In this document: positions 11,786-34,420 of the stretch, one piece after another | Position numbering within the stretch: position 1 is the first letter of the stretch | How the letters are laid out: each line of letters opens with the position of its first letter | NCBI GenBank assembly: GCA_025923995.1 | Contig: JAICEW010000025.1 | Coordinates: forward strand, 1 to 34,420 | DNA length: 34,420 bases | Origin: Vicinamibacteria bacterium | GTDB taxonomy: Bacteria > Acidobacteriota > Vicinamibacteria > Fen-336 | Reading direction: 5' to 3' | Made by a program: the position numbers and the translations under genes | The notes under the pieces: generated by a model | What the model saw: only the letters and a program-made list of their open reading frames with translations | Database searches by the model: none | What the model was told of the DNA's origin: nothing

Positions 11786-14700
11786 ATGCGCGTGGATCGC
11801 CTGAGGGTGCCGCTCGCGGTCGTATTTTCCGCCTTCGCGCTGCTCGACGCGCCGGGCGCCCTGGCCGACCCACGCCGTGCCCGGCCGGGCCCCGACGGCG
11901 CCGTCTCCTTCGAGCACCGGACGGCCCTGCTCCCGCACAGCGATCCCTACGGGATCGTGCTCGAGAGCTTCGGCATCTCCCTCGCGGTCTCGGGCGACGT
12001 CGCGGTGGTGGGGGCGCCGGGGAGCTTGTCCGCGCGCGTGTTCGTGCGCTCGGGAGGCGTATGGTCCGAGCAGCAGGTTCTGACCGGCACCGGCGCCGTG
12101 AACTTCGGCGTGACCGTCGCCATGTCGGGGGACACGATCGCAGTGGGAGGAATCGGGTTCGGCGATCCGGTTCCCGGTCCGGGCGCCGTCCACGTCTTCG
12201 TCCGTTCGGGCACGACCTGGGTGCTGCAGCAGAGGCTGCAGCCGGTGGGGATCACCAGCCAGTTCGGGATCCAGGTCGCGCTGGCGGGGGACACGCTGGT
12301 CGTGGGAGACCCGCTCGACGGTGCCTTTGCGGGGGCAGCGTACGTCTTCGAGCGTTCCGGGTCGGTCTGGGCGGCGCCACTGAAGCTGACATCGTCCAGC
12401 ACCGCCTCGAACGATCGGTTCGGAACCGCGGTCGCCGTCTCCGAGGATGCCGCGACGGTTGCCGTCGGCGCGCCCAATCACGGGAGTTCGCTCGGCAGCA
12501 CCCATGTCTTCGAACGGAGTGGAGCCTCCTGGACGGAACAGCCCATGCTGACGCCGGCCGGAGCCACGGGCCAATACAACTTCGGTAACGCCCTGTCGAT
12601 CTCCGGCGACACGATCGCCGTCGCCGCGTCGGGGGCCGACACGGCGGCCGGCACCAACGCGGGTGCGGTGCACGTGTTCGTGCGCGCCGCCGGCGTCTGG
12701 AGCGAGCAGCAGAGGCTGCTGGCGGACGACGCCGTTGCCGAGACGAACCTCGGCCGGTCGGTGCTGGTGGCGGGCGACCTGCTCCTTGCCGGCGCCTACC
12801 GCGGCCTGACGGGGCCGCAAGAGGGGGTCTACAGGTTCACGCGAACGGGCACCACGTGGACGCAGCAGCCGAAGCTGGTCGGTGACAAGACCCTGGCGCG
12901 CTTCGGATCGTCGCTCGGACTCACGGCGGACACCCTCCTCGTAGGCGCTTCACAAGAGGACGTGCGGGGCTGCGTGTACGCGTTCGACAGGGCCACCTGG
13001 ACGGCCGAACAGAAGCTCCGGTCGCTGGACTACCCCAACTGGGACGAGTTCGGCTGGGCCACGGCGGCCTCGGGCGACACGTTCGCGGTCGGCGCGGCGA
13101 ACGACTCCGGACCGGCCGCCGAGGAGGCGGGCTCGGTGGCGCTCTTTTTGAGGTCCGGTCGGGACGTCGTTGAGCAACAGAAGATCTTCGCGCAGGTGCC
13201 GGAAGACGGCAGATTCGGGTCGGCCGTCGCGCTCTCGGGGAACACGCTGCTCGTGGGCGCGTGGTCTTCATACTCGCCGTTCCCCGTCCGTCGAGGCACC
13301 GCCTACGTGTTCGTGCGCGCGGGCGGCACCTGGAGCTTGCAGCAGAAGCTGGACGCAACCGATAGCATCGACGGCCTTCACTTCGGCATCGCCGTCGCTC
13401 TCGAAGGCGATACCGCCGTGATCGGCACCAACCTGCCCTGGGGCGGCGCCTACGTCTTCACCCGGACGGGCACCACCTGGACCTTCCAGCAGAAGCTCAC
13501 GGTGCCCGACCAGAACGGATTCGGGGGGGCCCTGGCCCTCGACGGCGACACGCTGCTGGTGGGTGACGAGTACTTCAGCGCCGGCGCCAACCAGACCGGA
13601 GCCGCCTTCGTGTTCGTGCGCTCCGGCAACACCTGGACGCAGCAGGGGCCAATGCTGACGGCTTCGGACGCCGGCGTGCGGCGGTTCGGCCATTCCGCCG
13701 CCCTCTCGGGTGACACCGCGGTCATCGGCTGCCAGCAGGTGTCGCCGGGTCCGTGCTCGCCCGGAGCGGCCTACGTCTTCGTCCGCTCGGGCGGGACCTG
13801 GACGGAGCAGCAGAAGCTGACGGCGTCGGACGCCACCGCCTTCGATTCCTTCGGCGAGTCCGTCACCTTGCAAGGCGACGTCGCGGTCGTCGGCGCTCCG
13901 ACCGCGGTCGCGCCCGGTGCCTACGTCTTCACGCGGTCCGGCGGAACGTGGACCGAGCAGCAGAAGCTGCTGGACCCGGGGGGAACGGCAGGCCTGGGCA
14001 ACGCCGTGGCGCTTTCGAACGGCACGCTGGTCGTGGGTGCCAGGTTCGAGGTGGGCGGCTCCTTCACGGGCTCGGCGCACGTGTTCGACGCGGCCGCCGA
14101 TCTCGCCATCTCCATGACGGACGGCGCCCCGACCGCCGTGCCCGGCGAGCCGATCACGTACACGATCCGGGTGGACAACGCGGGCCCCAACCCGGCCACG
14201 GCGACGGTGGACGACGTCGTGCCGGCCGCGATCACCGGGGCCCGCTGGACCTGCGCGGCGTCGCCCGGCTCCACGTGCGCGCCCGGGGGCTCCGGAGACA
14301 TCCACGACACCGTGAGCCTGCTCGCGGGTGGAAGCGCGACCTACGAGCTGGTCGGCACGATCGCGCCGGGCGCCACGGGCACGCTGGCCAACACCGCGAC
14401 CGTCCAGGCATCTTCGAGCACGTTCGAGCCCAACCTCGCGAACAATTCCGCGGTCGACACCGACACGCTGACTCCGATCGCGGATCTCGGCGTCACCAAG
14501 ACCGATTCCGCCGACCCGGTCTCCCAGGGCGATCCGCTCGCCTACACGCTCACCGTCACCAACACGGGACCGTCCGACGGCCGGTCGCTCGAGGTGATCG
14601 ACACGCTCCCTGCCGGCGTCACGTTCCTGTCCTCGACGCCAGGTCCCCCTACCTGCACGCACGCTTCGGGGGTGGTCACGTGCGACATGCCGGTGCTGGC

Positions 14701-15526
14701 GTCCGCCGCGAGCACGACGATCACGGTGGACGTGACCGTGGCCGCGGGGAGCGGGATTCTCGTCAACAGCGCGTCCGTCTCCGGTCTCGACGACGACCCG
14801 GTCCTCGCGAACAACCAGGCGACCGCCGCGACCGCCATCGGCCGGCGCGACGGCGAGCTAACCCACGGCACGGCGTCGCTGCGCGACCTCGGACCCACGT
14901 CGGGCGGCGACGGCGAGGACACGTTCCGGCTGGTGCAGGCGCCGTTCGCGTCGTACGAGGTCGTGGTGGACGGAGCCTCGGGCGACATCGGGACGGGCGA
15001 CGGTCCGCTCGTGCAGCGAGTCGGCGCGGACGGCACGACCGTGCTCCAGGACTCGGTGCCGGCCGGGTCGGGCCCGAGCCGCAGCCTGCGCTGGATGAAC
15101 GCGACGTCGTCCCCGGTCGAGAGCGAAACCGTCCGCGTCCGCAGCGCCGGATGTTCGTCCGATTGTGGCGCGGACGACGTCTATCGCATCCGGGCTTACG
15201 AGACCACGCTGCGCGTGCCGCGGTTCAACAACGCCGGCACGCAGGTGACGGTCCTGGTGCTCCAGAATCCCGGCGGCTCACCGATCTCGGGCGAGGCCCA
15301 CTTCCGTCTGGCCTCGGGAGCCATCGCGGCCGTGCACGCCTTCACGCTGGGCCCACGGGAGACGCTCGTGCTCAACTCGTCCGGCCTGCCCGGTGCGGCC
15401 GGGGTGGCGGGCACGATCGCGGTCGTCCACGACGGCCCGTACGGGGGCCTGACGGGCAAGTCGGTCGCGCTGGAGCCGGCCACCGGCTTCAGCTTCGACT
15501 CGCCGGCCGAGGTCCGGCCGCGGTAG
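11786..15526 (+). CDS. large secreted protein with 14 FG-GAP-like repeats and two DUF11 domains
   Basis: A 1246-residue protein. Residues 1-27 are a signal peptide (PLAVVFSAFALLDAPGALA). Residues 62-770 hold 14 degenerate repeats of about 50 residues with the pattern FG-x2-VA-x-SGDT-x3-G...AYVF-x-RSG-x-TWTEQQKL. Fourteen FG-GAP-like units would make two seven-bladed propellers or one long array. DUF11 domains follow at about 771-895 and 898-1020 (TYTIRVDNAGPNPATATVDD; YTLTVTNTGPSDGRSLEVID). The C-terminal 220 residues contain a beta-rich module with one Cys pair (SAGCSSDCGADD) and a last domain (VPRFNNAGTQVTVLVLQNPG). The role is probably surface display or adhesion; no enzyme motif is seen. 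It starts behind GGGAGGGG and ends one base from a convergent gene. Confidence 0.88.
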   Translation: MRVDRLRVPLAVVFSAFALLDAPGALADPRRARPGPDGAVSFEHRTALLPHSDPYGIVLESFGISLAVSGDVAVVGAPGSLSARVFVRSGGVWSEQQVLTGTGAVNFGVTVAMSGDTIAVGGIGFGDPVPGPGAVHVFVRSGTTWVLQQRLQPVGITSQFGIQVALAGDTLVVGDPLDGAFAGAAYVFERSGSVWAAPLKLTSSSTASNDRFGTAVAVSEDAATVAVGAPNHGSSLGSTHVFERSGASWTEQPMLTPAGATGQYNFGNALSISGDTIAVAASGADTAAGTNAGAVHVFVRAAGVWSEQQRLLADDAVAETNLGRSVLVAGDLLLAGAYRGLTGPQEGVYRFTRTGTTWTQQPKLVGDKTLARFGSSLGLTADTLLVGASQEDVRGCVYAFDRATWTAEQKLRSLDYPNWDEFGWATAASGDTFAVGAANDSGPAAEEAGSVALFLRSGRDVVEQQKIFAQVPEDGRFGSAVALSGNTLLVGAWSSYSPFPVRRGTAYVFVRAGGTWSLQQKLDATDSIDGLHFGIAVALEGDTAVIGTNLPWGGAYVFTRTGTTWTFQQKLTVPDQNGFGGALALDGDTLLVGDEYFSAGANQTGAAFVFVRSGNTWTQQGPMLTASDAGVRRFGHSAALSGDTAVIGCQQVSPGPCSPGAAYVFVRSGGTWTEQQKLTASDATAFDSFGESVTLQGDVAVVGAPTAVAPGAYVFTRSGGTWTEQQKLLDPGGTAGLGNAVALSNGTLVVGARFEVGGSFTGSAHVFDAAADLAISMTDGAPTAVPGEPITYTIRVDNAGPNPATATVDDVVPAAITGARWTCAASPGSTCAPGGSGDIHDTVSLLAGGSATYELVGTIAPGATGTLANTATVQASSSTFEPNLANNSAVDTDTLTPIADLGVTKTDSADPVSQGDPLAYTLTVTNTGPSDGRSLEVIDTLPAGVTFLSSTPGPPTCTHASGVVTCDMPVLASAASTTITVDVTVAAGSGILVNSASVSGLDDDPVLANNQATAATAIGRRDGELTHGTASLRDLGPTSGGDGEDTFRLVQAPFASYEVVVDGASGDIGTGDGPLVQRVGADGTTVLQDSVPAGSGPSRSLRWMNATSSPVESETVRVRSAGCSSDCGADDVYRIRAYETTLRVPRFNNAGTQVTVLVLQNPGGSPISGEAHFRLASGAIAAVHAFTLGPRETLVLNSSGLPGAAGVAGTIAVVHDGPYGGLTGKSVALEPATGFSFDSPAEVRPR
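11969..14097 (+). repeat. 14 tandem coding repeats (about 140-170 bases each)
   Basis: In-frame degenerate repeats, each starting FG (twice LG) and ending with a tryptophan-containing WxxQQKL-like strand. Later units such as those near 13680-13990 are more alike (GGTWTEQQKL occurs twice), which suggests more recent duplication toward the 3' side. Confidence 0.8.
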
Positions 15527-16981: not shown

Positions 16982-17734
16982 TCAGGGCGCCTTGGCGCCG
17001 ACCGCGTAGGCGATGCGCTCCTGCTCGACGCCGGCCGCGTCCATCCGCCGGACCTCCAGCATGGCGCCGGGAGCGAGTCCCTGCGCGTCCAGGACGAGGC
17101 GGCCGCGGTCGAGGCCTTCGGGGAGGGCGCCGGACCACAGCGTGACGCCGGTGCCGTCGACCAGCTCCGCCTCGATCCTCTGGCCCGCGGGGCGCGCCGG
17201 CAGCGCGAACTCGAGCACGACCATCGCCGCCGGCAGCGGCGTCGGCCGGTCGGGGGTCAGCACGAACGTCTGCGGGAACATCGCGCGCGCCGAAGGTCCG
17301 CGCTTCACGGCCGGGTCGGCGGGCGGCTCGGGCCGGACCGCGCCCGCCACGAAGAGGCCCGCGGGCACGCTCATCACCAGCGCCGCCGCCCAGGCCAGCT
17401 CGGGCCGGCGCCACCATGTGGGCCGGCGCTCGTGGCGGAGGGTGCCGTTCACCTCGCGCAGCGCGTCGCGCTCGGCCCGGCAGGCCGCGCAGAGGTCGAG
17501 ATGGGCGATGGCCTCGCCGCTCTCGGCCGCCTCGACGATCTCGTCCGGCGTCAGGTGGGTCGCACGCAGGCCGTCGAGCAGGGCGCGCACCTCCTGCAGC
17601 TCCGCGGCGCAGACCGCGCACGCCCTCGCGTGGGCTGCGGCCGCCGCGCGCTCCTCCGCGTCCAGGGTTCCCGCGGCCAGGAAGGGGATCAGCCCGTGCT
17701 CGGGGGCGGCGCAGTCCATGGGCTCCACGGTCAT
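16982..17734 (-). CDS. membrane anti-sigma factor with two zinc-finger motifs
   Basis: A 250-residue protein. The N-terminal cytoplasmic part has the zinc-binding anti-sigma motif: C8, then H35-x3-C39-x2-C42. A second copy, H78-x3-C82-x2-C85, is also present. A single membrane helix spans about 113-133 ([21 protein letters not shown]), and about 115 residues follow outside the cytoplasm as a beta-rich domain ([20 protein letters not shown], then [20 protein letters not shown]). It should hold the ECF sigma factor at the membrane and release it after a signal. ATG 17734 overlaps the sigma stop (ATGA) and has GGAG upstream; the long upstream frame is shadow. Double zinc motifs are unusual and may reflect domain duplication. 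Confidence 0.88.
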
Positions 17735-18282
17735 GGACGCTCCACCGGCCGCGGGGTTACGAGATCGTGTGCGATTCGTGACGCCTTGGCGCGGCAGCGC
17801 AGGGCGCGCACCTTCACGTTGCCCTCGGTGAGCCCCAGCCGCCGTGCGATCTCGGCGTAGGGGAGCTCCTCGAATGCGATCAGGGCCCACAACCGGCGGC
17901 ACTCCTCGTCGAGGCGCTCCAGGACGCGGCGGAACACCTGCCGCCGGTCCCGCGCCGCCACCTCCGCATCGGCCGCGTCCGCGCTGGCGGGCGCGGGGAT
18001 GGCCTCCAGCGGGACCGAGGCGCGCCGGCGGCGTCCACGCCCGTGGTCGATGGCGGCGCGCTGGGCGGCCTTCCACACGTACGTCCGGAGGGAGGCGTCG
18101 CCCCGGAAGCGCTCGGCCCGGAAGGACAGCAGCAGCTTCCGGCGGACCTCCTGCGCCACGTCCTCGAGGTCCGTCCCCAGCGCGAGGCGACGATGGGCGA
18201 GCACTTCGTGGATCCACCGGTCCACCTGCGCGTGGCACTCGCTCTCGCCCCTGAGGAAGCCGGCGATGAGGGCAGCGCTCAT
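17731..18282 (-). CDS. ECF-type RNA polymerase sigma factor
   Basis: A 183-residue sigma-70 family protein with only regions 2 and 4. Region 2 covers about residues 15-85, including [17 protein letters not shown] and the promoter-melting stretch [19 protein letters not shown]. Region 4 covers about 115-170, with the recognition helix in [22 protein letters not shown] basic RGRRRR linker follows region 2. It directs RNA polymerase to a small set of promoters once its anti-sigma partner (overlapping by four bases) lets go. No ribosome binding site is visible before ATG 18282; a TAGAGT box lies at 18304-18299. It is divergent from the TPR-CHAT gene, 73 bases apart. Confidence 0.93.
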
Positions 18283-18355
18283 GGCAGAGGAAGGTGCGAC
18301 TCTAGCACGGGGACAACTCGGCGGACGCCTCTGCTAGACTCCGCCGCCAAGCGGC
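18283..18355. promoter_or_regulatory. divergent promoter region between the ECF sigma gene and the TPR-CHAT gene
   Basis: The 73-base gap holds TAGAGT on the minus strand (18304-18299) and TAGACT on the plus strand (18335-18340), each 15-16 bases from its start codon. A GCCGC-CAA-GCGGC hairpin (18343-18355) abuts the CHAT start. No textbook -35 is evident, so these may be weak or alternative-sigma promoters; autoregulation by the ECF factor is possible. Confidence 0.4.
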
Positions 18356-21196
18356 ATGCTGAGCGCCCTGGTCGCCACCGTCCTGGCCGCTTCCCCCGCC
18401 CCGACGAAGGCGCCCGCGGAGGTCGTCAAGCCGATCAACGAGCTCCTCGTGCGCGGCAAGTACGCCCAGGGGCTGGCCCAGGCCGAGGCCCTCGCACGGC
18501 GGGCCGAGCGCGAGAACAACGTCGCCCTGCAGGCGCGCGCGCTGCTTCTCGCCTCGGACGCCCTCTACTACCTGAACCGCCAGCCGGAGTCGAAGCCCGT
18601 CATGGAGCGCGCGCTGGCGCTGTCCCAGGGCATCGACGACCCGGAAGGGATCGGGCGCGCGTACTACTCACTCTCGTTCCTGTACGAGCGCACCGAGCCC
18701 GAGCGCATGGTACGCCTGCTGGAGACGGCCTGGCCGTACGCCCAGCGCAGCGGCGACGCGCGCCTGCAGATGCTCGTGCAGAACGGCCTGGGCAGCGCGA
18801 AGTACACCCTCAACCGGGCCACTGACGCGCTCGTCCACTACCGCGAGTCGGTGCGCCTCGCGCGCGAGCTCAAGGAGGAGCACAGCCTGGCGGTCGCCCT
18901 CTGCAACATCGGGCTCATGGAGCAGCACCGGGCCCGCTACGCCGAGGCGGAGGCGGCGCTCCAGGAAGCGGGCGCGCTGCACGACCGGTTCGGCCCCTCC
19001 GTGCAGGCGGGGCTGGTCCTGGTGAACCTGGGGCTCGTCGCGCGCAGCCGCGGCGAGCCGGAGAAGGCGATGGCGCTCTACGAGCGCGCCCTCGCCCTCT
19101 ACGAGCAGTTCGGCTACCAGCGCTACGTCAGCGGGCCGCTGACCACGCTGGCGGAGCTGCACGAGGAGCAGGGAGACGCGGACGCCGCCGAGAAGATGCG
19201 CCGCCGCGCGCTGGGAATCGCGCAGGCCGCGAACGATCCCATCCGCGCCGTCGAGCTCCTCTCGCAGCTCGCGCGCCAGGCCGCCGCGCAGGGGCGCGAC
19301 CGCGAGGCCGACGAGCTGCTGGAAACGGCCGCGGCCGCCGCGCGGAGCCACGGCGATCCCGGCCTGCGCCTGGAAGTGGCCCTCACGCGCTCCCGCCTGA
19401 GCCTGCGCCGCGGGGACGGCGCGTCGGCCCTGGCCGCGGCCGAGGAGGCGACCCGCATCGCGCGCGAGGGCGACGACCCGCAGATGGAGGGCCTGGCCGA
19501 CCACCAGCGCGCCGAGGCCCTGGCGGCCCAGGATCGGCTCGAGGACGCGGCGGCGGCCTGGCAGCGCGCCATCGCCCGCTACGAGGACACGGCCACGTCC
19601 CGGCACCTGCACGTCTGGCACGGCCGGCTGGCCCGCGTCCTCGTCGCGCTGGGCCAGGACGCGCGCGCGCGCGTGCACTTCGAGGAGAGCCTGCGGCGGA
19701 CGCGCGACCTCGAGCGCGTCCTCGCCATCGACCGCTTCCGGCTGAGCCTCTTCGACGAGGTGGCGGACGTCCATCGCGAGTACGCGTGCTGGCTGGCGGC
19801 GCGGGGCGAGGCCGAGCGGGCCTGGCAGGTGCTGGAGCAGGGGCGCACGCGCGAGCTGCGGCTGCGGCTGGCGCAGGGCGGCCGGGGCCCGGACCCGACG
19901 CCGGAGGAGCGCGAGGCTCTGGCGCGGGTGAGCCTGCTGCAGCGCCGGCTGCGCGAGGAGGCCATGGACCGCGACGAGCGCCGCGCGCTGTCGCGAGCCC
20001 TCGCGCAGGCCGAGGACGACTACGAGCAGTCGCGGCGGCGCGCCCAGCGGGGCCGCGCGCCGTCCGCGGAGCCAGACGACGGGATCCTGGAGTTCGCGGA
20101 GGGCGTGACCGTGGTCGAGTACGCGCTGGCGGGCCCGCGGCTGCTGGTGCTGAGCCGCCGCGAGGGCGTCACCCGCGCGCGCCTGGCCGACGCGACGGGC
20201 CTGGCCGAGCGCGTGCGCGACCTGCGCGCGAGCGCCGCGGACGCCACCCGTCCCTTCGCCGCGGAGGCGGCCCGTGCGCTGGCCGAGCTGCTCCTGGGGC
20301 CGGAGACGGCGGGCCTGCCGCCCGGCCGGGTGGTGATCGTGCCCGACGACGCGCTGCACACGCTGCCCTTCGCGGCGCTCGTCGCGTCCGACGGGAGCTT
20401 CCTCGGCGAGCGGCTCGTGATCTCGACGGCGCCGTCCCTCGCGGCCTGGCACGAGCTGCGTTCGCGCTCGACCGCGCCCGCCGCGCGCACGCTGGCGGTG
20501 ATGGCCAACACCCGCTTCGTGGACGGCTCGGGCGAGGCCGAGCGTCCCCGCCTGGCCGCGGCCGCCGCGGAAGCGCGCGAGGTCGCGGGGCGGGCCGCCA
20601 ACCCGCTGCTGCTGCTGGACGCGAGCGAAGCGCGTCTCAAGCGCGAGCCGCTGGGCGACTTCCAGGCGCTGCACTTCGCGACCCACGTGGAGATCGACGA
20701 AGGGCGGCCGGAGCGCTCGCGCATCGTGCTGGCGGCGGGGGAGAGCGAAGACGGGTTCCTGCAGGCGCGGGAGATCGAGCGCATGCGCCTCAACTGCCGG
20801 CTGGCGGTCGTCTCCGGCTGCCGCAGCGGCGAGGGTCGCATCTTCGGCGGGGAGGGGGTGGTGGGCCTCTCGCACGCGTTCTACACCGCGGGCGCCCGCA
20901 GCCTGCTCATGAGCCTGTGGGACGTGAGCGACGAGAGCGCGGCCGCCCTCATGCGCCTGTTCTACGAGGCGCTGCCCGGCCGCACGCCGGCCCAGGCGCT
21001 GCAGCGCGCGCAGCGCGGCCTGCGCCGGTCGCGGCGGTTCGACCACCCCGCGCACTGGGCTGCGTTCTTCGTCTCGGGCGACGCCGACCAGCGGCTCGAC
21101 CTCGGCAGGGGCTGGCCCTGGTGGGCCCACCTGGCCTGGATCCTGCCCCTCGCGACCCTCGGCGTGGTGCTGATGGCCAGGCGCCATCCGAGGTGA
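18356..21196 (+). CDS. TPR-CHAT protein, putative membrane-anchored caspase-like protease
   Basis: A 946-residue protein. Residues 1-19 are hydrophobic (LSALVATVLAAS) and may be a signal sequence, though without N-terminal charges. Residues 25-480 are helical TPR-like repeats (for example AEAEAALQEAGALHDRFG, PEKAMALYERALALYEQFGY). A charged coil lies at about 480-570, and the CHAT domain covers about 573-910. The CHAT catalytic pair is visible: H777 in LHFATHVEI and C822 in VVSGCRSGEG. A hydrophobic segment near 922-940 (HLAWILPLATLGVVLMARR) could anchor the C-terminus. CHAT proteins are caspase-clan cysteine peptidases, often fused to TPRs that sense a trigger. Its divergent neighbours are an ECF sigma and a membrane anti-sigma factor. 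No start codon lies upstream in frame (TAG at 18335). Confidence 0.9.
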   Translation: MLSALVATVLAASPAPTKAPAEVVKPINELLVRGKYAQGLAQAEALARRAERENNVALQARALLLASDALYYLNRQPESKPVMERALALSQGIDDPEGIGRAYYSLSFLYERTEPERMVRLLETAWPYAQRSGDARLQMLVQNGLGSAKYTLNRATDALVHYRESVRLARELKEEHSLAVALCNIGLMEQHRARYAEAEAALQEAGALHDRFGPSVQAGLVLVNLGLVARSRGEPEKAMALYERALALYEQFGYQRYVSGPLTTLAELHEEQGDADAAEKMRRRALGIAQAANDPIRAVELLSQLARQAAAQGRDREADELLETAAAAARSHGDPGLRLEVALTRSRLSLRRGDGASALAAAEEATRIAREGDDPQMEGLADHQRAEALAAQDRLEDAAAAWQRAIARYEDTATSRHLHVWHGRLARVLVALGQDARARVHFEESLRRTRDLERVLAIDRFRLSLFDEVADVHREYACWLAARGEAERAWQVLEQGRTRELRLRLAQGGRGPDPTPEEREALARVSLLQRRLREEAMDRDERRALSRALAQAEDDYEQSRRRAQRGRAPSAEPDDGILEFAEGVTVVEYALAGPRLLVLSRREGVTRARLADATGLAERVRDLRASAADATRPFAAEAARALAELLLGPETAGLPPGRVVIVPDDALHTLPFAALVASDGSFLGERLVISTAPSLAAWHELRSRSTAPAARTLAVMANTRFVDGSGEAERPRLAAAAAEAREVAGRAANPLLLLDASEARLKREPLGDFQALHFATHVEIDEGRPERSRIVLAAGESEDGFLQAREIERMRLNCRLAVVSGCRSGEGRIFGGEGVVGLSHAFYTAGARSLLMSLWDVSDESAAALMRLFYEALPGRTPAQALQRAQRGLRRSRRFDHPAHWAAFFVSGDADQRLDLGRGWPWWAHLAWILPLATLGVVLMARRHPR

Positions 21197-32430: not shown

Positions 32431-34420
32431 TCAGCGGCCGAGCCGTCCGGGGCCCATCACGATGAAGCCGCCCCAGTAGAACGGATGCGCGTAGCGGCGG
32501 TCGGACTTGACCGAAAGCGCGGCCGTGCGCAGCGCGTCCGCCGTTCCGCGGCCTCCCGACAGCGCGCGGTGGAAGGCGACCATCAGCTTCGAAGTGCTCT
32601 GCGAGTCGACCTTCCACTGGCTCACGACCGTGGCGGGGCAGCCCGCGACGGCGAACGCCCAGCTGAGCCCGATCAGGCCCTCGCCGCGCCCGGGCCGTCC
32701 GCGTCCCGTCTCGCACGCGGAGAGGACCGCGACGTCGGCGCGCAGGTCCATCTCCATGATCTCCCACGCCTCGAGCAGCCCGTCCTCGGCCTCGCCGGGC
32801 GCGGGGCGCGCCAGCACCAGCTGCGAGTAGAGCGGGCTCGCGTCGTTGAGCAGGCCGTGTGCGGCGAAGTGCAGGAGCCGATGGCGTGCCGCCTCCGCCT
32901 TGACCCGCGCCTCGCGCGCCTCATCGCCGACGTACACGACGCTGCCGGCTCCGTACAGGCGGCCCAGCGCGCGCACTTCGTCCGCCGCCTCGGGCAGCGG
33001 ACCCAGGTCCGCGCCGCGATGCAGGGACGCCACCTGCCGCCGCTGGCGCTCGTCCACCGTGGGATCGCCCAGCGCCAGCAGCCCGAGCGTCTGGCCCACC
33101 CGCTGGGGGCGCCGGCTCATCTCGTGGAGCGCGGTGAACGAGGGGACGTACGCGACCGCGCGGTCCTCCAGCAGGTAGCGCCCCGGCCGGCACTCGAGCG
33201 CCTGGAAGGGCAGCTCCCACAGCGGCCCGTCGGGCACGACGACGAGCCGGTCGAAGGACGGCAGCTCGCGGCGCACGGGCCCCAGCAGCGTGGCACACAG
33301 GTCCCGGGCCTGAGCGCGCACGCCCAGGTCGCGCGCGGCCAGCGCCTCGCGGAAGCGCCGCGTGCGCTCCTGCAGCGCGCGCCGGCCGGCCGCGAGGGCG
33401 TGGAGCTTCAGCGGGCCCGAGCGGGACAGGGCGAACAGGTACGTCTCGTCGTCGGTGACGGCGTAGGAGACCGCGAGGGTCCGCTCGTCGAGCAGCGCGC
33501 GCGTGTCCTCCAGGCGCCAGGGCGCCGTCTGCCCGCTCCGCGTGCGGATCTCCGGATGGGCGGCGAAGACCTCGCTGCGGAAGGCCTCGTACTGGCGCCG
33601 GGCCTCCCGCAGGGTCTCGCGCGCGGCGGCGAGCCCGGCCGGGTCGGCGGGCTCCGCCCGCTCGCGCTCCTGGGCGCGCGCGCCGGCGCGCGCGAGCGCC
33701 TCGCGCAGGGACGTCTGCCGCTCGCGCTCGGACGCCGTGAGCAGCGAGTCGAGCCGCGTCCGGCCGCCGCCCAGCGCCTCGACCAGCGCGCGGGCTCGTC
33801 CCCGCTCCGCCTGGGCCAGCGCGGTCTCCGCCCGGCCCTGGCGCGCGCTGAGCCGCATCAGGCCCTCGTACGACGAGGTGTTGAGCTCGAGGAACCTCTG
33901 CTTCTCCACCTCGTCGCCCGCCACCTGGTCGCGGAGCGCTTCGGTGGCGCGGATGGAGTGCTCGAAGGCCGCGGCCGCCTCCTCGTCCCGTCCCAGCGCG
34001 GCCAGCGCGATGCCCTTCGCGTTCCACGCGTCCGCGCGACGGCGATCGCTGTCCAGGCGCTCCGCCGCGGCCAGCGCCTCGTCGGCCGGCGGCAGCGCCG
34101 CGGGGGCGCGGCCCAGCTGCACCAGCGTGAGGGCCTGCTGGCACAGGATCGGGATCAGCGCGTCGAGGTTCCCGCCGCGGACCACACCGACCGCGCGCTC
34201 CCCTTCGGCGGCGGCCTCCTCGTTGCGGCCGTCCTCGAGCGCCAGCCGCGCCAGCTCGGAGTGCGCCAGCGCGGCCGCTTCCCGGGCGCCCCCCTTGCCG
34301 GCCAGGGCGGCCGACTCCTCCAGGCTCGCGCGCGCCTCGGCGCTCCGTCCCAGCTCGGTCAGCACGCTGGCCGCCTGCACCCGCTCGAAGATCGCGCCGA
34401 ACTCGTTGCCCAGCTTCTCC
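32431..34420 (-). CDS. second TPR-CHAT protein, 5' end outside the window
   Basis: The frame is open at the right edge, so the N-terminus is missing; 662 residues are visible. The first 180 or so are TPR-like helices (AEARASLEESAALAGKGG, DEALAAAERLDSDRRRADAW, DEEAAAAFEHSIRATEAL). A long charged coil follows (ERERQTSLREALARAGARAQ), then a C-terminal CHAT domain of about 330 residues. The CHAT catalytic His is in LLHFAAHGLL (codon 32857-32859) and the Cys in LSACETGRG (codon 32713-32715). It ends FYWGGFIVMG followed by PGRLGR, a normal CHAT end with no membrane anchor, unlike the protein at 18356. A caspase-like protease or scaffold role is inferred. No partner gene is visible in this window. 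Confidence 0.9.
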   Translation of the reverse strand, partial: EKLGNEFGAIFERVQAASVLTELGRSAEARASLEESAALAGKGGAREAAALAHSELARLALEDGRNEEAAAEGERAVGVVRGGNLDALIPILCQQALTLVQLGRAPAALPPADEALAAAERLDSDRRRADAWNAKGIALAALGRDEEAAAAFEHSIRATEALRDQVAGDEVEKQRFLELNTSSYEGLMRLSARQGRAETALAQAERGRARALVEALGGGRTRLDSLLTASERERQTSLREALARAGARAQERERAEPADPAGLAAARETLREARRQYEAFRSEVFAAHPEIRTRSGQTAPWRLEDTRALLDERTLAVSYAVTDDETYLFALSRSGPLKLHALAAGRRALQERTRRFREALAARDLGVRAQARDLCATLLGPVRRELPSFDRLVVVPDGPLWELPFQALECRPGRYLLEDRAVAYVPSFTALHEMSRRPQRVGQTLGLLALGDPTVDERQRRQVASLHRGADLGPLPEAADEVRALGRLYGAGSVVYVGDEAREARVKAEAARHRLLHFAAHGLLNDASPLYSQLVLARPAPGEAEDGLLEAWEIMEMDLRADVAVLSACETGRGRPGRGEGLIGLSWAFAVAGCPATVVSQWKVDSQSTSKLMVAFHRALSGGRGTADALRTAALSVKSDRRYAHPFYWGGFIVMGPGRLGR

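Follow-up and report, generated by a model that had tools for sequence, protein, structure and literature searches.

Side by side in a 34,420 nt stretch of DNA from a Vicinamibacteria bacterium (GCA_025923995.1, contig JAICEW010000025.1; called the window from here on, with residue numbers referring to its proteins) are the genes for an extracytoplasmic function (ECF) sigma factor, a membrane anti-sigma factor and a predicted exported, caspase-like protein with tetratricopeptide repeats (TPR) and a CHAT domain, and these three genes very probably form one functional unit, whatever its mechanism. Since inhibitor and caspase are a single protein in some relatives, the caspase-like protein probably detects a signal beyond the inner membrane and then releases the switch, possibly through cleavage of the inhibitor. 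The fused form is already known as DdvA of Myxococcus, and the window, judged from its sequence, appears to represent a split version of such a sensor that is widespread. Many Acidobacteriota keep a sigma/membrane anti-sigma switch beside an exported caspase-like protein. The pattern, studied so far in DdvA alone, is thereby extended to an entire phylum, and it shows that anti-sigma factor and caspase-like sensor can be joined in one protein or divided between two. To our knowledge, environmental bacteria very commonly encode CHAT proteins, nearly all of which are without a function outside CRISPR; exported TPR-CHATs tied to membrane anti-sigma factors give a testable role to a large set of them.

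Linkage of sigma, anti-sigma and CHAT genes

All gene links are based on open reading frames called in this analysis and on small hidden Markov models. When all CHAT genes of the window's genome and 13 relatives were collected (n = 57), a sigma gene was found less than 2 kb away for 24. The density of sigma genes was 0.129/kb within 2 kb of CHAT genes vs 0.0092/kb at 2–9 kb, a background that matches the density in the genome as a whole (0.0088/kb). This 14-fold enrichment (Poisson P 2e-20) rules out chance adjacency. In the named genomes from the CHAT motif scan, the enrichment ratio was 10. For the converse search, the window anti-sigma factor used as a single query gave almost no matches and a family profile was required, which was run against 297 genomes of the phylum. 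A CHAT gene lay within 4 kb of 47 of the 60 anti-sigmas of the window's type that were inspected with their neighbourhoods, these being among the best hits of a profile made from CHAT-linked members and so biased to linked ones; about half of the remaining 13 are close to a contig end. A mirror-tree test gave r 0.55 (0/2000 shuffles), a value confounded by species and subfamily, with three usable pairs from the window's own genome.

A full-length orthologue of the TPR-CHAT protein (43% identical) occurs in Vicinamibacteria ACD1 (G013; loci L056/L132), where the triple is kept in a convergent layout, and the triple is also present in Aminicenantes, Krumholzibacteriia, Myxococcota and other loci. 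The cultivable Paraliomyxa miuraensis (L180) likewise has the split system. Among the 60 pairs, the sigma gene is upstream on the same strand in 26, downstream in 11, convergent in 21 and divergent in only two, the layout of the window being seen otherwise only in L133 (Krumholzibacteriia). Since linkage is kept through rearranged layouts, as in the convergent ACD1 orthologue, what is conserved is the partnership, not the divergent arrangement. An earlier note on this DNA, made from the sequence alone, had proposed a search for the triple in relatives and would have taken its absence as a refutation; the triple was found there, but usually without the divergent layout.

The gene order in the window could also mean that the CHAT gene is an output of the switch, driven by the sigma factor and encoding a periplasmic protease for other substrates. 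ECF sigma factors often regulate neighbouring genes, and the divergent genes share a 73 bp gap with an imperfect inverted repeat at 18298-18307 and 18332-18341 (GACTCTAGCA / TGCTAGACTC). The repeat, which may have a function, sets TAGACT and TAGAGT symmetrically, 15-16 nt before both start codons; a consensus sigma-70 promoter was sought in the gap and none was found. However, the linkage is kept in convergent layouts that lack a common promoter, and the existence of anti-sigma-CHAT fusions weakens this explanation further, so that it appears improbable. In six Aminicenantes loci (L143, L144, L147, L154, L175 and L179), two CHAT genes flank one sigma/anti-sigma pair, one with a C-terminal membrane helix and one without, an arrangement that is neutral on whether CHAT is an output.

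Fused homologues and relationship to DdvA

The zf-HC2 domain, membrane helix and TPR-CHAT are encoded as one gene in L098, L105/L286, L113/L302, L107/L301, L287 and L288, in each case following the sigma gene with an overlap or a few bases between them (zf-HC2 E values down to 2e-8). A second anti-sigma type, without the zinc residues (YLLGxL), is apparently fused to TPR-CHAT after the sigma gene in L292, L295 and L296, and the window's genome also encodes it on its own, next to CHATs (L016, L017, L018 and L022). That fusion occurs with two types of anti-sigma factor is an argument for the anti-sigma factor and CHAT acting together, and the order of domains in the zf-HC2 fusions would put CHAT in the periplasm.

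Searched against the PDB, the anti-sigma and CHAT profiles both had 8rot chain B (991 aa) as best match, at residues 7-114 (E = 2.1e-8) and 835-979 (E = 1.9e-13), respectively. Its N-terminus matches 8rlz, labelled antisigma factor DdvA, and the Foldseek entries 8rot and 8rw5 (release date 2024-11-06) show the transmembrane anti-sigma factor DdvA by cryo-electron microscopy. The histidine and cysteine of DdvA align with H777 and C822 of the window protein. In the DdvS/DdvA system of Myxococcus xanthus, as in the window, an ECF sigma factor is held by a transmembrane anti-sigma factor with an N-terminal zinc domain, and DdvA ends in a CHAT domain; the anti-sigma N-terminus and helix and the CHAT domain are each homologous between the two. 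However, DdvA is a single chain carrying zinc domain, helix and CHAT, whereas the window encodes two proteins from separate genes on opposite strands, and its anti-sigma factor has an FN3-like domain of its own. The signal of DdvA was reported as unknown in 2015 (PMC4374960). Apart from the ECF54 context (see below), no description of the split form and its spread was found in the readable literature, outside which lay the DdvA papers (2018, 2024) and the 2021 ECF re-classification.

A CHAT domain fused to an anti-sigma factor is held in a fixed stoichiometric role, and this would suit a non-proteolytic co-sensor, in which TPR-CHAT binds the periplasmic part of the anti-sigma factor and alters its conformation or shields it from other proteases, like RseB or like a fused sensor of the DdvA kind. 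The DdvA structure is described as that of an anti-sigma factor, not a protease, and three fusions from one genus have lost the catalytic pair. On the other side, H777 and C822 are invariant across 34 aligned CHATs, the split type included, and the pair is kept in most fusions (L098, L105, L288, L292, L295 and L296) as well as in DdvA, although pure binding would not require it. A role in binding only is weakened by this invariance and is considered somewhat unlikely.

Gene products and predicted topology

The sigma protein has regions 2 and 4 only, which places it among the ECF sigma factors, matches TIGR02937 (sigma70-ECF, E = 2.4e-22) and has RpoE as its nearest solved chain (1or7_A, E = 5e-7). 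Its stop codon is overlapped by the start of the anti-sigma gene by 4 bases. The anti-sigma protein carries the zinc motif H35-x3-C39-x2-C42, each of whose three residues shows 90% or more conservation among 20 linked anti-sigmas, and a single transmembrane helix at about 111-133 (about 115-133 by helix prediction, 111-132 in the AlphaFold2 (AF2) model), so that it has the HxxxCxxC motif and one helix of a zf-HC2 membrane anti-sigma factor encoded beside an ECF sigma gene. The zf-HC2 match itself (E = 1.6e-4) scores 22.2 bits, exactly the Pfam cut-off of 22.2. In the AF2 model (predicted local distance difference test, pLDDT, 79), residues 143-166 form a disordered linker and the C-terminal domain is a six-strand FN3/Ig-like fold, with weak Foldseek matches to FN3/beta-sandwich domains. 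This linker contains R145 (about position 17300 of the window), the residue with the highest conservation across the anti-sigma family.

Table 1. Features of the sigma/anti-sigma/TPR-CHAT locus in the window.
Feature	Coordinates	Strand	Remarks
Membrane anti-sigma factor, 250 aa	16982..17734	-	N-terminal zf-HC2, one helix, linker, C-terminal domain
ECF sigma factor, 183 aa	17731..18282	-	PF04542 (Sigma70_r2) E 1.1e-5; PF08281 (Sigma70_r4_2) E 1.1e-10
Divergent intergenic region, 73 bp	18283..18355		between sigma and TPR-CHAT genes
TPR-CHAT protein (predicted exported), 946 aa	18356..21196	+	PF12770 E 1.8e-62; CHAT 637-909; H777, C822

The TPR-CHAT protein consists of a signal-peptide-like segment (1-20), about 20 TPR-type helical hairpins, a whole CHAT domain with its His/Cys pair (211.9 bits vs a cut-off of 24), a C-terminal helix (922-943; 923-941 by helix prediction) and the tail ARRHPR. 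Its AF2 model (pLDDT 87.7, predicted template modelling score, pTM, 0.83) has Csx29 as top fold match (8eey_B, E = 2.6e-16, Foldseek), with separase and DdvA (8rw5/8rot) also near the top. The three genes lie where the earlier note had placed them, and its account of an ECF sigma gene overlapping that of a one-helix anti-sigma factor, both diverging from a TPR-CHAT gene that keeps the His/Cys pair, was confirmed in each part.

Applied in bulk, a crude signal-peptide score lacked specificity (positive for 43% of all genes encoding 200 aa or more), and the topology argument was therefore confined to CHATs with a C-terminal helix, whose tails and starts were inspected. Nearly all of these with intact 5' ends have signal-peptide-like N-termini when upstream starts are allowed, a net positive tail follows the helix in almost all, and 20 of the 23 have a linked sigma gene. 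The positive-inside rule would place the basic tail in the cytoplasm and the TPR-CHAT part in the periplasm. The sequence RRPTWWRR precedes the helix of the anti-sigma factor, and for this reason its FN3/Ig-like domain is also predicted to be periplasmic. CHAT and the anti-sigma C-terminal domain should then both face the periplasm, the side that the fusions require for CHAT, in agreement with the earlier proposal that the two lie on the same side of the membrane.

A possible route to sigma factor release

In the mechanism considered here, the anti-sigma factor would tie the ECF sigma factor to the inner membrane via its cytoplasmic zf-HC2 domain and expose its FN3/Ig-like domain in the periplasm, while the exported TPR-CHAT protein, with its C-terminal helix as anchor in this same membrane, would act on this periplasmic part. 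The TPR superhelix would sense a periplasmic signal or a misplaced protein and activate CHAT, which as site-1 protease would cut the anti-sigma factor; the sigma factor would then be freed by an M50 protease of the RseP type together with proteases of the cytoplasm. This is the simplest reading, by analogy: Csx30, a sigma inhibitor, is a substrate of the TPR-CHAT protease Csx29 (PMC10028731), and the window's genome has an M50 site-2 protease of the kind used on RseA (G000:C22:4820-6070, E = 7e-59). We put the probability of such proteolytic release at about 0.45. If cleavage is true, bacterial transcription would in this case be triggered by a caspase-like protein in the periplasm. More tentatively still, TPR-CHATs might be a new class of periplasmic site-1 anti-sigma proteases, a separase/caspase-like (clan CD) counterpart of DegS; Acidobacteriota and some Myxococcota, Krumholzibacteriota and Gemmatimonadota would use it as an interchangeable module in split or fused form.

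Several observations weigh against proteolytic release. The signal peptide of the window TPR-CHAT is short and has no basic residue, about eight anti-sigmas of the family have no CHAT nearby, and the co-selection of CHAT with the sigma factor also fits CHAT as a target gene. The loss of the catalytic His and Cys in L287, L301 and L302, which by their sequences are pseudo-protease sensors, indicates that CHAT can serve without catalysis. R145 was considered as a CHAT cleavage site and rejected, being equally frequent in anti-sigmas without a CHAT neighbour, and was not used; a loose R145-type motif occurs in 58/60 linkers vs 78% of shuffled linkers.

Comparison with other systems

Membrane anti-sigma factors with a periplasmic domain are also found in the RseA/DegS/RseP pathway, but at site 1 the window unit would use a clan CD cysteine protease and not DegS. 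The earlier note had taken the Csx29-Csx30-CASP-sigma system of type III-E CRISPR as its precedent, and this holds for the fold of the TPR-CHAT protein and for the presence of an ECF sigma factor and an inhibitor in one locus, while the nearest relative by sequence is DdvA, an anti-sigma factor with CHAT fused to it. Csx29 associates with Cas7-11 and depends on RNA for its activation, whereas the window CHAT is predicted to be exported and membrane-anchored, and its sigma inhibitor, unlike that of type III-E, is a zf-HC2 membrane protein. Neither Cas7-11 nor a CRISPR RNA array was indicated by defence-family matches in the triple or its ten neighbouring genes, and the locus has no CRISPR neighbour, as had been claimed. 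The earlier interpretation as a whole is partly supported. In the CalpL-CalpT-CalpS system (type III CRISPR), a protease likewise cuts an anti-sigma factor and frees a sigma factor (PMC11229360), but CalpL is a cytoplasmic, Lon-family SAVED protease activated by a second messenger.

CHAT-domain proteins are conserved in the genetic context of ECF54 sigma factors, which are described without an anti-sigma factor (PMC8999054); the window shares the CHAT protein but has an anti-sigma gene in the locus. ECF54 is resembled more closely by L071, L075 and L102, where the sigma gene overlaps or abuts that of a soluble TPR-CHAT, with no anti-sigma factor and no signal peptide, and these loci are perhaps a cytoplasmic, ECF54-like third form.

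Genomic surroundings

DdvS/DdvA controls a CBASS (cyclic oligonucleotide-based antiphage signalling system)/CRISPR defence island in M. xanthus (PMC12288465), and the window unit could similarly sense phage at the envelope and drive defence genes, the more so as DdvA is its closest solved relative and Csx29 and SAVED-CHAT are defence proteases. No such island is seen at the window locus: PADLOC gave no matches among the ten neighbouring genes and only a generic TPR model for the triple, so that the window holds no sign of this copy controlling defence genes, and the neighbours are fatty-acid, lipopolysaccharide-export and amino-acid genes. The 6.8-Mb genome has 19 CHAT genes, many at contig ends, and this number suggests many uses. 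A defence role is considered very improbable; it concerns the output only and is compatible with proteolytic release.

A second CHAT protein in the window (32431-34419, minus strand) is cut by the contig end, and its readable side is without a sigma gene. Giant exported repeat proteins (FG-GAP/DUF11, cadherin/Ig, PKD, Calx-beta, beta-helix) are encoded near several loci of the window's type (window 11786-15526; L056, L062, L162 and L186). Such surface proteins were noted post hoc near 8/67 linked vs 5/70 solo loci, and are possible members of the regulon.

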